A stretch of 34,763 nucleotides of DNA. It comes from Desulfobacterales bacterium. GTDB lineage: Bacteria > Desulfobacterota > Desulfobacteria > Desulfobacterales > UBA11574. The position numbers and the translations under genes are program-made. Within the stretch, counting starts at the first letter, position 1. Each line of letters opens with the position of its first letter. The DNA is taken from assembly GCA_020345745.1 (NCBI GenBank), contig CP070768.1:105905-140667 (forward strand), given 5' to 3'. The notes under the pieces are model-generated. The model had not been told where the DNA came from. It searched no databases and worked only from the letters and a program-made list of their open reading frames with translations. Positions 31,801-34,763 of this stretch are shown piece by piece.

Positions 31801-32010
31801 ATGATCTTTGAAACATCCCGCCAAGCCCGGTTTTTGATTCCTATGGCCATCTCTTTAGGATACGGTATACTGTTTGCGACGGCAATTACCCTAATATTGG
31901 TGCCGTCCCTTTATCTTATCATTGACGATATGTCTCAATTGATCAGGACAAAGGTGGTAATCGATACCGAAATACAGAAGGAGTCCGGATCACCAACCTT
32001 GGATAGATAG
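28861..32010 (+). CDS. RND efflux pump, inner-membrane permease subunit
   Basis: 1049 residues, typical of AcrB-like pumps: 12 membrane segments with large periplasmic loops after segments 1 and 7. The N-terminal motif EVFPQFELDRIRITVPYPGA, in part, and GASPQEVERGI are family signatures. The proton-relay Asp pair is in GIVVDDAIVVGENV (segment 4), and GVVVNDSLLLIDFSNRR marks segment 11. It exports small molecules from periplasm or membrane using the proton gradient. Substrates cannot be read from sequence, and no regulator gene accompanies the operon. By eye this gene and the adaptor are more G+C-rich than the rest of the window. Confidence 0.95.
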   Translation: MNPPSANDSKRKGPIAWMVGHGVTANLVMLVLLVGGLYLGIRVKKEVFPQFELDRIRITVPYPGASPQEVERGIILAIEEAVQGLEGVSEIRASAREGSGTVTVEMIEGEDLQKLAQDIQNEVDRITSFPEEAEEPQVVIVSRRRYVVSLALYGDQSEGVLREYAEYLRDRLLQDSDITQVELTGIRDYEISVEIRQDTLRAYDLTLEEVARRIGRTSVELPGGAVKAPGGDVLVRVKERKDYGHEFGKIPIITANDGTQVLLEDIAHIKDDFEETDNAATYNGKPAVMIEVYRVADQTPISVSDAVKRVVAVVNQEIPSGLSVVLRRDRSEIYRQRMGLLIKNGCIGLGLVFVLLALFLEVRLAFWVALGIPISFLGSLLVLPAAGVSINMVSMFAFIVTLGIVVDDAIVVGENVYHHHQNGAPWFNAAISGTREISVPVTFTVLTNMVAFAPMFFVPGIMGKIFKQIPVVVIAVFAMSLIECFLILPAHVGNQKMLQKRTFGWLHNWQQRFSNGFVRLVDGKFGPFLALALRWRYVTVSLGIAILMITMGYVKSGRMGFELFPKIESNYALVTAMLPFGTAFQKTEKVQQVLIRAAQEVVEENGGKMLMEGIFANIKNNQVKVRIYLTPPKKRPITTARVTELWRERVGVIPGLESLLFESDAGGPGRGSAITVELSHKDIVRLENAADEVAEALGFYPNVKDIDNGFAPGKQQIDFRIKPEAQSLGLRSREVAKQVRHAYYGAEALRQQRGRNEVKVMVRLPKNERVSEYHLEEMILRTPSGSEIPLRSAVTILRGRAYTDINRRDGRRIVSVKADVRPRSKAGQVLQSLKAETLPALQEKYAGLSYSFEGRQADQRESIQSLMRGLMVALVVIFAMLAVPLNSYVQPVIIMAAIPFGIVGAVIGHLIMGYSLSVLSMFGVVALCGVVVNDSLLLIDFSNRRVRAGMNRRDAVHQAGIHRFRPIILTTLTTFGGLSPMIFETSRQARFLIPMAISLGYGILFATAITLILVPSLYLIIDDMSQLIRTKVVIDTEIQKESGSPTLDR

Positions 32011-32457: not shown

Positions 32458-32754
32458 TTAAAGCTGTAATCCTAATTGATAGATTTCGTATTCAGTTGGT
32501 TCGTCAAGTAACGGTTCAAACGCAGCCTCATTTTCTTTTCTCAAGTCATCCTTTTCCCATTGGTCCCAATCCTCTTTTCTTTGCCACATGGAAATAACTA
32601 ACACATGATTGGAATCATCACAGCCGCTCAAGGTTTCCGATGAAATATAACCTTGCTGACCCATGGCATTGTACCGGGCTTTAATGAGGAGCTTTGAGGC
32701 ATCATTCAATTTACCGTCTTTTATTTTTCTTTTGATTAAAACTTTAACCGCCAT
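32458..32754 (-). CDS. ABM-domain protein (antibiotic biosynthesis monooxygenase family)
   Basis: 98 residues forming one ferredoxin-like ABM domain: VKVLIKRKIKDGKLNDASKL in part, GYISSETLSGCDDSNHVLVI in part, then MWQRKEDWDQWEKDD. ABM proteins act as small cofactor-free oxygenases, haem-degrading enzymes or quinol-handling proteins; the fold alone does not say which. A perfect AAGGAGG site precedes the ATG. Its stop codon abuts a TIR element. Confidence 0.88.
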   Translation of the reverse strand: MAVKVLIKRKIKDGKLNDASKLLIKARYNAMGQQGYISSETLSGCDDSNHVLVISMWQRKEDWDQWEKDDLRKENEAAFEPLLDEPTEYEIYQLGLQL

Positions 32755-32949: not shown

Positions 32950-33144
32950 ATGTCAAGTGATAAATGGATTTACATGGCAAATGGTTAGATGCAATGTCGT
33001 GGTGTCGATAAAAGGCTATGTATGTTCAAAGCTAGGGTAAATATGTCAAAAATCACGATTAATGAATACATCAGCGGAGAGAGTTTGATACACATTAAAA
33101 AAGGAGGAATAAAAACAGACTTTAACATGCCTAAATCAATATAA
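32950..33144 (+). pseudogene. Small reading frame with in-frame TAG (12 + 51 codons)
   Basis: ATAAGGAG lies 7 bases before an ATG that opens MSSDKWIYMANG, then TAG (32986-32988), then the same frame continues 51 codons from an adjacent ATG (MQCRGVDKRLCMFKARVNMS and beyond) to TAA 33144. The strong ribosome site shows that the first part is probably translated. I do not recognise the product. Possibilities: a small gene with a nonsense codon, a leader peptide followed by a second ORF, or amber readthrough. Confidence 0.35.
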
Positions 33145-33189
33145 TAAATATTTCCTTCATTTTCCTATTCTGACATTAACCTCAAAATG

Positions 33190-33222
33190 TGTAAAATTTT
33201 TCATAGAATGTATGAAATTTAC
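33190..33222. promoter_or_regulatory. Imperfect inverted repeat upstream of the first sigma-54 promoter
   Basis: GTAAAATTTTTCATA and TATGAAATTTAC are near-inverse arms, centred about 115 bases upstream of the sigma-54 promoter at 33322. That is the usual distance for an enhancer-binding activator. The role is inferred. Confidence 0.4.
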
Positions 33223-33321
33223 TCCATAGATCAACAAGTTTTCATATATTTTAAGTTTAAATTTCACTTAAAGAACTTATAACTATCTGTAATTTAAGAG
33301 TTTGCATCTGAGTATTGCAGT

Positions 33322-33337
33322 CGGCACATTTTTTGCT
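33322..33337 (+). promoter_or_regulatory. Sigma-54 promoter
   Basis: CGGCACATTTTTTGCT matches TGGCAC-N5-TTGCW at all key positions except the first base, with the required GG-to-GC spacing. Downstream are a 15-codon ORF with a G-rich ribosome site (ATG 33406) and, about 290 bases on, the MshEN-like gene. The rest of 32755-33630 is AT-rich with no recognisable gene. Confidence 0.62.
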
Positions 33338-33630
33338 GATGTTTTGAGTTTAAGTTCAAAAATAATATGGACGAATTAATCGATTTAGGGGGAAAAAGGG
33401 TCCGTATGCATAATCAAAGGAAGCAACGCCATACTCTCAAAGTAACTGACTAGACAGCAATCTTTCAATTATCTCAAAGCTGTTGCCTTGCTTGACGATT
33501 GCCGAATTATGGACATTTATTTTTCTGAACGATTTATCAAAATCGAGGAACATCCTAATCCCGCTTCGGAATGATTGGCGGTGGGAGAAATGACAGAAAA
33601 GCAAAGACTTTAGTCTGTATAGGAGGTAAC

Positions 33631-33840
33631 ATGTCTATTGAAATGCTTGACAAACGCTTTGGCACCATCGCTATCGAAAAGGGGTTCATTGCGCTAGGAC
33701 ATCTGATGGCGGCATTAGAGATTCAGGTTACCGAAGATTTGGAAGGTGTTAAACGACGTCACATTGGCCAAATTTTATTGGAAAAAGGTTTTATAACCTA
33801 TGCACAAATAAATGAAGTGCTTAAATCTATGGGTATTTAA
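33631..33840 (+). CDS. Small stand-alone MshEN-like (GspE N-terminal) domain protein
   Basis: 69 residues from ATG 33631, chosen because AGGAGG lies just upstream; an earlier in-frame start at 33571 has none. Two tandem half-motifs are visible. Residues 9-32 read RFGTIAIEKGFI then ALGHLMAALEIQ; residues 44-67 read HIGQILLEKGFI then TYAQINEVLKSM. This is the R/K-h-G-xx-hh-xx-G-hh-xxxx-L-xx-L pattern of the MshEN domain, which binds cyclic di-GMP in MshE and related type II secretion/type IV pilus ATPases. Here the spacer is 11 residues rather than about 5, and no ATPase follows. It may be a small c-di-GMP or adaptor protein; binding is not shown. Confidence 0.75.
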   Translation: MSIEMLDKRFGTIAIEKGFIALGHLMAALEIQVTEDLEGVKRRHIGQILLEKGFITYAQINEVLKSMGI

Positions 33841-34186
33841 AACCATTGTCATCTGATCCAATTGCATAGGCCATGTTCAAATTTAGCGCACTGATTATTT
33901 TTCATAGAATTGTAACCTTGATATAAGATCGTCGGGTTAAATTTTGTAATAATTAGATGAAGCCCGCAATGGAGCTGCATTTTTGATTTTTTGTGGACTG
34001 ACGTGATATACGCGATGAGACTTAATTGAAGTTGGGCTGCGTTTCTTGCAAGCTATCGGTAACAGCAAGATTCAAATAAATTAATACATAGGCATATGCT
34101 GTTTAAATTCCACTTTCTCTTTCCTACAATACCCGCTTCATTTTTCTACATTTAGTAATGTATAGAGAGTATGAGTTTTTTTCAAA

Positions 34187-34206
34187 TTGTGAAATAAAAT
34201 TCACAA
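34187..34206. promoter_or_regulatory. Palindrome upstream of the second sigma-54 promoter
   Basis: TTGTGAA (34187-34193) and TTCACAA (34200-34206) are perfect inverse arms around ATAAAA. They are centred about 107 bases upstream of the sigma-54 promoter at 34303, a normal enhancer position. Confidence 0.5.
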
Positions 34207-34302
34207 AAATTGGTAAGTATTATTCATAATATTTAGTTGTGTTAATATTAATGTGTGAGATAAATATTAAAGATCTTTGCAGATAAATTTATTTGAAGAA
34301 TT

Positions 34303-34318
34303 TGGCACAATTCCTGCT
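34303..34318 (+). promoter_or_regulatory. Sigma-54 promoter
   Basis: TGGCACAATTCCTGCT has the -24 TGGCAC and -12 TGC elements at the correct spacing, with one change (C for T) before TGC. It lies about 140 bases upstream of a small ORF at 34460. I see no gene in 33841-34459. Confidence 0.68.
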
Positions 34319-34459
34319 TAAATTGTGAATAAAGTTTTTATGTTCTTTGCAATCATTATATATATTGGCAAAAATAAATGCCGTCCAACTTCAACACCTA
34401 TATAAAAACCATGTGATGGTAAAGAGCCTCAAATGGTTTAACTTAAAAGGAAGTTTGAA

Positions 34460-34600
34460 ATGGCATTTTTAATTAATGTCTTCTCGGGCGTGCGTGCATC
34501 TTTTTATACGGTCATCTTGAACATAAAACTGGGATATGCACCGGTATTAATAACGGCGTTTCGGGAAGCCAATAAATACAGGAAGAAATTTCTAGGATAA
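34460..34600 (+). CDS. Small hydrophobic protein, unknown
   Basis: 46 residues: MAFLINVFSGVRASFYTVIL, then NIKLGYAPVLITAFREANKY, then RKKFLG. AAAAGGAAG lies about 7 bases upstream of the ATG. It is hydrophobic and basic, perhaps membrane-associated. Expression from the sigma-54 promoter upstream is likely. Not recognised. Confidence 0.5.
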   Translation: MAFLINVFSGVRASFYTVILNIKLGYAPVLITAFREANKYRKKFLG

Positions 34601-34656
34601 TAATCAATTTTTTTGCCATAAAGTTAAATTTATGAATTAATTATAAGGTTTAAGCA

Positions 34657-34763
34657 ATGATTATAAAAAATGATCAATTTGAACTTGAGATATATCCGGG
34701 TTCAACTGTTTATTTAGGTTCTAGAAAAAAAGGACAAACTTTCACAAAATGGGATGAAATTGA
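34657..34763 (+). CDS. Start of an unknown protein, cut by the window end
   Basis: 35 codons are visible: MIIKNDQFELEIYPGSTVYL, then GSRKKGQTFTKWDEI. AAGG lies upstream of the ATG. It follows the small hydrophobic protein by 56 bases and could share its sigma-54 transcript. Not recognised from this fragment. Confidence 0.45.
   Translation, partial: MIIKNDQFELEIYPGSTVYLGSRKKGQTFTKWDEI

Follow-up and report, generated by a model that had tools for sequence, protein, structure and literature searches.

The question raised by this locus is what two sigma-54 promoters in a gene-poor stretch of a Desulfobacterales genome drive. The first-pass annotation had placed behind them only tiny proteins or RNAs (a 15-codon frame at 33406, an MshEN-like gene and a 46-residue protein) and had suggested a small sigma-54 regulon of mini-proteins or a small RNA. 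We analysed the window, i.e. the whole stretch of 34,763 nucleotides, together with its host genome of 3.4 Mb in one contig. The locus is flanked on one side by a probable RND-type efflux operon (an outer-membrane efflux protein by Pfam, and a transporter-like frame of 1049 aa, recognised by eye, that ends at 32010) and on the other by TRAP transporter-like frames past the window end, also recognised by eye. On the reverse strand, 32458-32754 encodes a protein of 98 aa that matches the antibiotic-biosynthesis-monooxygenase (ABM) domain barely above the cut-off. Sigma-54 (RpoN) promoters are defined by GG at -24 and GC at -12 at a fixed spacing, and the two promoters annotated with correct -24/-12 spacing are indeed present:

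33322-33337, forward strand: sigma-54 -24/-12 element of promoter 1, CGGCACATTTTTTGCT, score 25.0 of 26
34303-34318, forward strand: sigma-54 -24/-12 element of promoter 2, TGGCACAATTCCTGCT, score 25.5 of 26, with an identical 16-mer in genome G001

Both carry the GG and GC and are the two highest-scoring sigma-54-like sites of the window, the third-ranked site reaching 24.0 on a consensus score with a maximum of 26. It may be noted that T at the second position of this consensus was credited only after TTGCAT elements had turned up. The sequence TGGCACRNNNNNTGCT occurs 13 times genome-wide as compared to 3 times for its reversed control. A weaker equivalent of the first element, TGGCCTAATTTTTGCT, exists in G001 with a UAS-like site 97 nt upstream, 324 nt before a related MshEN-like gene. 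Judging from the position of the -12 element, transcription from promoter 2 would be expected to start at about 34329.

Upstream of each promoter the palindrome that had been pointed out is real. The putative enhancer sites in these regions were scored with enhancer motif 1, TTRTGAAANNNNTTTCAYAA, a consensus built from the matches, for which the maximum score is 16.2:

33187-33206, forward strand: putative enhancer site, copy 1, promoter 1, ATGTGTAAAATTTTTCATAG, score 13.8 of 16.2, ending 115 nt before the -24 element
33210-33229, forward strand: putative enhancer site, copy 2, promoter 1, GTATGAAATTTACTCCATAG, score 13.1, ending 92 nt before the -24 element
34187-34206, forward strand: putative enhancer site, copy 1, promoter 2, TTGTGAAATAAAATTCACAA, score 15.5 of 16.2, ending 96 nt before the -24 element
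34210-34229, forward strand: putative enhancer site, copy 2, promoter 2, TTGGTAAGTATTATTCATAA, score 12.1, 23 bp downstream of copy 1

The motif-1 sites of the window are in tandem, 23 bp apart, at both promoters. The second palindrome corresponds to TTGTGAAATAAAATTCACAA accompanied by the weaker site at 34210-34229; the first, TTTCATA..TATGAAA, may be understood as the place where two tandem degenerate motif-1 sites meet. At promoter 2 the enhancer-like sites are conserved in relatives, the one at 34187-34206 being found at the same place in 9 relatives of this promoter type (weaker in L090) and a sequence similar to that at 34210-34229 in most aligned relatives, whereas the promoter 1 sites are degenerate with one weak counterpart. 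The distance from the nearest strong motif-1 site to the -24 element is about 92-98 nt in most cases and 113-139 nt in others.

The proposed genome scan for the palindrome near sigma-54 promoters gave a divided answer. Counted alone, the palindrome shows hardly any enrichment (per strand, 15 sites in the genome and 12 for the control, at two mismatches or fewer), but a linkage is seen at the best sites: at all 3 one-mismatch sites elsewhere in the genome, a correctly oriented sigma-54-like element follows 92-139 nt downstream. Among the 11 two-mismatch sites, 4 were looked at, of which one has such an element and the other three have none there. Two of the four elements so found read TTGCAT.. 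instead of TGGCA... A whole-genome scan for TTCAYAA combined with a sigma-54 element gave 6 matches against 1 in the control, and the left arm of the palindrome is absent in 3 of the 6. At the orthologous promoter 2 of another genus, the 16-mer and the spacing are identical and the palindrome is altered on both arms. A CRP/FNR-type palindrome was considered and rejected, as the spacing is unlike that of the consensus TGTGA-N6-TCACA.

Behind promoter 2, it was the small-RNA option that found support, as a structured RNA with covarying pairs overlies the 46-codon frame. Its parts are as follows:

34378-34466, forward strand: RNA 5′ domain, from a 22-sequence alignment
34378-34385/34459-34466, forward strand: outer stem of the 5′ domain
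34387-34392/34450-34455, forward strand: inner stem of the 5′ domain
34407-34410/34435-34438, forward strand: hairpin stem of the 5′ domain
34472-34575, forward strand: RNA core domain, from covariance models R1/R2, covariation and genome searches
34478-34495/34553-34570, forward strand: core stem P1
34508-34516/34533-34544, forward strand: core stem P2
Within the core, forward strand: loop segments GTGCATCTT and AATAACGG

From eight sequences, a shared stem of 17 bp with compensating changes was obtained. On extending the comparison to 59 aligned copies, P1 and P2 together gave 105 cells with two-sided changes as compared to 35.5 in shuffles (0 of 500 shuffles reach 105) and 17-30 in slid controls, and the two-sided changes are spread over 15 of the 25 pairs. 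Unguided RNAalifold on the 59 copies recovered P1 and not P2, which was predicted from the 8-sequence fold and placed by hand for the 59-copy count. A shortened copy, L110, was left out of alignment A6. For the 5′ domain, the cells with two-sided changes number 21 in 22 sequences, as compared to 8.9 in shuffles and a range of 7-15 in slid controls, but the number of pairs with two-sided changes, 8, falls inside the slid-control range of 6-10; in the alignment used (A7), L165 was left out, the inner stem was added by hand and a small predicted hairpin was removed. This domain was seen in 27 of the 65 copies inspected, other families of the phylum included. The conserved loop segments of the RNA are GUGCAUCUU and AAUAACGG. 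In the 32 copies that the model and not the pattern had picked out, GTGCATCTT is intact in 30 and AAYAACGGC in 25; in the 36 pattern loci CGTGCATCTT and TTAATAACGGC were fixed by the search pattern, and their invariance in these loci carries no weight. On the forward strand G-U pairs are common, in agreement with the direction of promoter 2. The folding energy is not better than that of shuffled sequences (z of -0.98 for 34329-34575 and -0.18 for the core), and the case for an RNA therefore rests on conservation and covariation. Rfam 15 gave no match at the gathering score for 33100-34763 of the window, 17 whole loci and L126:280-620; the names that appeared below the threshold (GcvB, suhB, PrfA and others) were taken as chance.

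The covariance model found the RNA in 102 of 389 genomes of the order, in 50 of 150 genera and in 22 of 24 of the family, these counts being lower bounds due to the strict filters of the search. When a second model was run on genomes drawn across the phylum, 14 of 395 had a match at E 1e-4, among them this genome and two more from the order. In named genomes, a pattern scan yielded 41 stretches, 36 of them with a strong model match; the other five were dropped for having no model match (L106, L115, L129, L142) or a weak one (L136), as was a weak reverse-strand match in L099. Judging from their titles, nearly all records with the RNA belong to Desulfobacterales or other Deltaproteobacteria. The present genome carries at least seven copies. 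Elsewhere, paired copies occur on one contig, as in L108 (2846-2948 and 2965-3067) and G039:C49, within about 200 nt, and in G059:C300, 3 kb apart.

We then compared what surrounds the copies. A sigma-54-like element is present 20-200 nt upstream of 28 out of 60 distinct copies, as compared to 193 of 16486 random positions (1.2%) in the same loci and to a mean of 0.38 copies (maximum 2 in 50 rounds) with shuffled upstream stretches; 8 of these 28 elements read TTGC.. and were counted only through the weight added after such sites had appeared. The remaining 32 have none within 200 nt, and among the copies that were not pattern-selected 6 of 23 have one. On restricting the view to this genome, one of seven copies (the window's) has a near element, and a second copy lies 327 nt behind one that stands before a short gene. 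Two enhancer motifs occur among the copies, TTRTGAAANNNNTTTCAYAA (the window type) and TGTCANNNNNTGACA, along with two arrangements. In the first, comprising ten copies including that of the window, the element is at -133 to -174 with a TTRTGAAANNNNTTTCAYAA enhancer (weaker in L090) and the 5′ domain. In the second, comprising 13 copies, it is at -26 to -43, and in 8 of the 13 it is preceded by a perfect TGTCAAAAAATGACA whose first base lies 120-146 nt ahead of it; L104 belongs here and has the first enhancer type. Five of the 28 promoter-bearing copies fit neither arrangement, and the L144 copy of this genome has TTGACA-17-TATAAA directly upstream.

Intrinsic terminators follow 30 of 57 testable copies as compared to 54 of 2188 random places. 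Between the core RNA and the terminator there are repeats of about 35 nt, CTTGTAGGATTGTCAACCTTTCTCCACAACCTTT, one to three per copy (L103, L111, L118, L122, L125, L139). Another element that looks structured, made up of GTTCGGACGACTCC..GATGGCTCAACCGAAC, then CCTTGAAAC..TTTCAAGG and a terminator, is present at L034:1249 (forward strand), L138:1237, L143:3210, L024, L078, L083, L093 and L099. In several cases it lies behind an RNA copy, while in the L034 leader it occurs by itself, with a sigma-54-like element on one side and a gene of the 69-aa type described below on the other; it has no Rfam match above threshold in L024 and L138. Behind the window promoter type no terminator was found in any of the 8 testable relatives, although L127 shows an imperfect one by eye, the window copy itself (193 nt available) being outside the test. 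The window copy may therefore be a leader of the next gene, i.e. an RNA in the 5′ UTR that controls in cis the small open frame beginning at 34658 (34658-34763 in the window) and perhaps the TRAP-transporter-like genes behind it. In two further genera a frame resembling that at 34658 is seen downstream by eye, and a CAAX-protease-like (Rce1-like) gene follows four other copies of this promoter type. This gives the promoter type a partial sign of the consistent downstream family expected of a riboswitch or cis-leader, yet no downstream or neighbouring gene family is common to more than 6 of the 60 copies, and many copies are followed by a terminator of their own or sit a short way behind genes. 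We consider a cis-acting role unlikely on balance.

A reading of about equal standing, and likewise doubtful, is that of a protein-binding or RNA-stability element, a structural tag for an RNA-binding protein or a transcript shield that would act in mRNA 3′ regions and as a free decoy RNA. The conserved internal-loop segments inside a long stem and the many copies close behind genes agree with it. So does the search for Hfq (PF17209), which gave no match in 25 genomes, many of them incomplete, as compared to matches in 5 of 14 control genomes. It offers no candidate protein, however. CsrA was not found in this genome (G000, 91.84% complete); of the 25 genomes searched, 8 gave a match to it and 17 gave none.

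The 46-residue protein that had been listed as a product of promoter 2 did not survive comparison with relatives.

34460-34600, forward strand: 46-codon open frame, read as a chance frame over the RNA, with start codon, frame and length that are not kept in relatives

A ribosome-site-like AAGGAAG precedes an ATG in the window (by eye), and some forward frame is open across the core in 23 of 59 copies, which counts against a non-coding nature. Against this, a protein search with the 46-residue frame gave matches in 8 of 60 genomes, and 6 of the 8 matches besides the query contain internal stops. The nearest relative is 83% identical at the DNA level (261/314) and yet has lost the start codon and lacks 16 nt. 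In 51 of 58 other copies a stop is present in frame from the aligned core start, and in 44 of 58 other aligned copies the length offset from the window copy is not a multiple of 3. The sequence changes track base pairing instead. The frame is thus refuted as a conserved gene and a real small protein is highly improbable; the place of the frame is better read as that of a structured non-coding RNA gene. As a caution, a short open frame that follows a sigma-54 promoter may turn out to be an RNA gene. Equally remote is a mobile repeat or integration site in place of a functional RNA, which the several copies per genome and the integrase-like frames near three of them (L104, L131, L144; by eye) might suggest. 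Against it, the copies of this genome differ much from one another, whereas promoter and enhancer are retained at the orthologous copy of another genus, and no transposase-like cluster was seen by eye among the printed neighbour clusters common to at least 3 loci. RNA genes may serve as integration sites at L104, L131 and L144.

Turning to promoter 1, its probable product is the MshEN-like gene:

33631-33840, forward strand: gene of a 69-aa MshEN-like protein, probable product of promoter 1

The gene belongs to a real protein family, with 10 matches in this genome and matches in 14 of 40 genomes, and to this extent the annotation held; the likeness to MshE and PilF is weak (profile against PDB profiles, PilF E=0.0002 and MshE 5htl E=0.0043), and the protein has no Pfam match above cut-off. 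Some of these genes are neighbours, three at C1:3414515-3415390 and two at C1:1197888-1198355 of G000. For the 15-codon frame at 33406, put forward as another product, no counterpart was found in the single aligned relative, in which the alignment is poor at this place. Among the MshEN-like genes scanned, a sigma-54 element together with an enhancer was seen only upstream of the window's and one G001 gene, so the family as a whole does not appear to be sigma-54 controlled.

Motif 1 with a sigma-54-like element precedes both the 69-aa gene (33631) and the RNA core (34472) in the window, and elsewhere in this genome it precedes genes of a group-1 glycosyltransferase (PF00534), a PilZ protein (PF07238), a 65-aa protein and a 302-aa lipoprotein-like protein (the last by eye). 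A PEP-CTERM protein gene (PF07589) has motif 1 with a weak sigma-54-like element, TCGCACGATTCTTGCA, of score 22.0. In one further case the pair is followed by a 90-aa protein gene, the second RNA copy, a terminator, and then a PilZ protein and another gene of the 69-aa type. Several of these elements are TTGCAT.. rather than TGGCA... The functions behind motif 1 are mostly envelope and c-di-GMP-receptor-like, which suggests a surface/c-di-GMP regulon. Of the original proposal, the sigma-54 regulon and the small RNA find support, and the restriction to mini-proteins does not, in view of the glycosyltransferase, PilZ, PEP-CTERM and lipoprotein-like genes. A PrsR-type regulator was rejected as the activator, its best match in the genome scoring 424.2 bits against the TIGR02915 (NCBIfam) cut-off of 502.6 in a search that scored 43 of the 66 first-look candidates in G000.

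Taken with the above, promoter 2 probably leads to a folded regulatory RNA, most likely a trans-acting small RNA on cell-surface genes. Signals would reach a sigma-54 enhancer-binding protein at the two tandem sites 73-116 nt upstream, and the activated sigma-54 polymerase would start the transcript at about 34329. The transcript may then fold into the 5′ domain and the core hairpin carrying the conserved loop segments. With the same core RNA encoded several times per genome behind different promoters, different signals could feed one RNA pool. The RNA would act in trans through the GUGCAUCUU loop segment or by protein binding, on cell-surface genes, and the same putative activator site also precedes surface and c-di-GMP-receptor-like genes. 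As no Hfq was found in any of the 25 genomes and no CsrA in this one, base pairing without Hfq, or another protein partner, would be needed. A wider proposal, which we put forward tentatively and hold to be less likely than not to be correct in full, is a multi-copy class of structured regulatory RNAs in Desulfobacterales and some other lineages of the phylum, fed by several sigma-54 activators and by sigma-70 promoters and free of Hfq, in which the conserved internal loop receives a protein or a small molecule and so joins two-component signalling to a c-di-GMP/biofilm programme.

Searches of open-access PubMed Central listed few papers on regulatory RNAs of sulfate-reducer-type bacteria, and no description of this RNA was seen among the titles and abstract openings listed, some listings giving part of the matches. 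Many relatives of sulfate reducers carry the RNA, several times per genome, and it may help to control the cell surface. With a covariance model and many copies at hand, along with two enhancer motifs and a candidate regulon, RNA regulation in bacteria for which the search gave no Hfq becomes testable.

Among known systems, Qrr-type sRNAs need Hfq and act by Hfq-dependent base pairing, and a CsrB/RsmZ-type decoy RNA requires CsrA to sequester; with no Hfq found in 25 genomes and no CsrA in G000, the present RNA would fall under neither type. The 69-aa family, whose profile weakly matches the MshEN domain proteins MshE and PilF, differs from them in that its predicted protein is small and stand-alone, with no Pfam match above cut-off. 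The Qrr sRNAs of Vibrionaceae are sigma-54 dependent, with LuxO and SypG as activators in V. fischeri (PMC10162802). They resemble the proposed picture of the present RNA in the sigma-54 promoter, the enhancer-binding proteins, more than one activator per kind of RNA and the link to an aggregation programme; unlike Qrr, this RNA has no Rfam match above threshold, occurs in genomes in which the search found no Hfq, and belongs to a different phylum. A second likeness is to Dv_sRNA2 of the sulfate reducer Desulfovibrio vulgaris, an sRNA described as a target of the two-component response regulator DVU0679 (PMC3333781); it differs in being situated downstream of its own regulator gene, the two being compared here by description. 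The same paper describes DVUA0057, of PrsR type, as a sigma-54 activator of PEP-CTERM and exopolysaccharide genes and notes the lack of a validated motif for it (PMC3333781). Sigma-54 control of such genes is what its regulon would share with the candidate regulon here, whereas all matches in this genome stay below the TIGR02915 cut-off. The RNA family itself, without an Rfam match above threshold or a description found, represents a kind of system that is already known from Qrr, which two sigma-54 activators can drive, and from the reported response-regulator sRNA in D. vulgaris.
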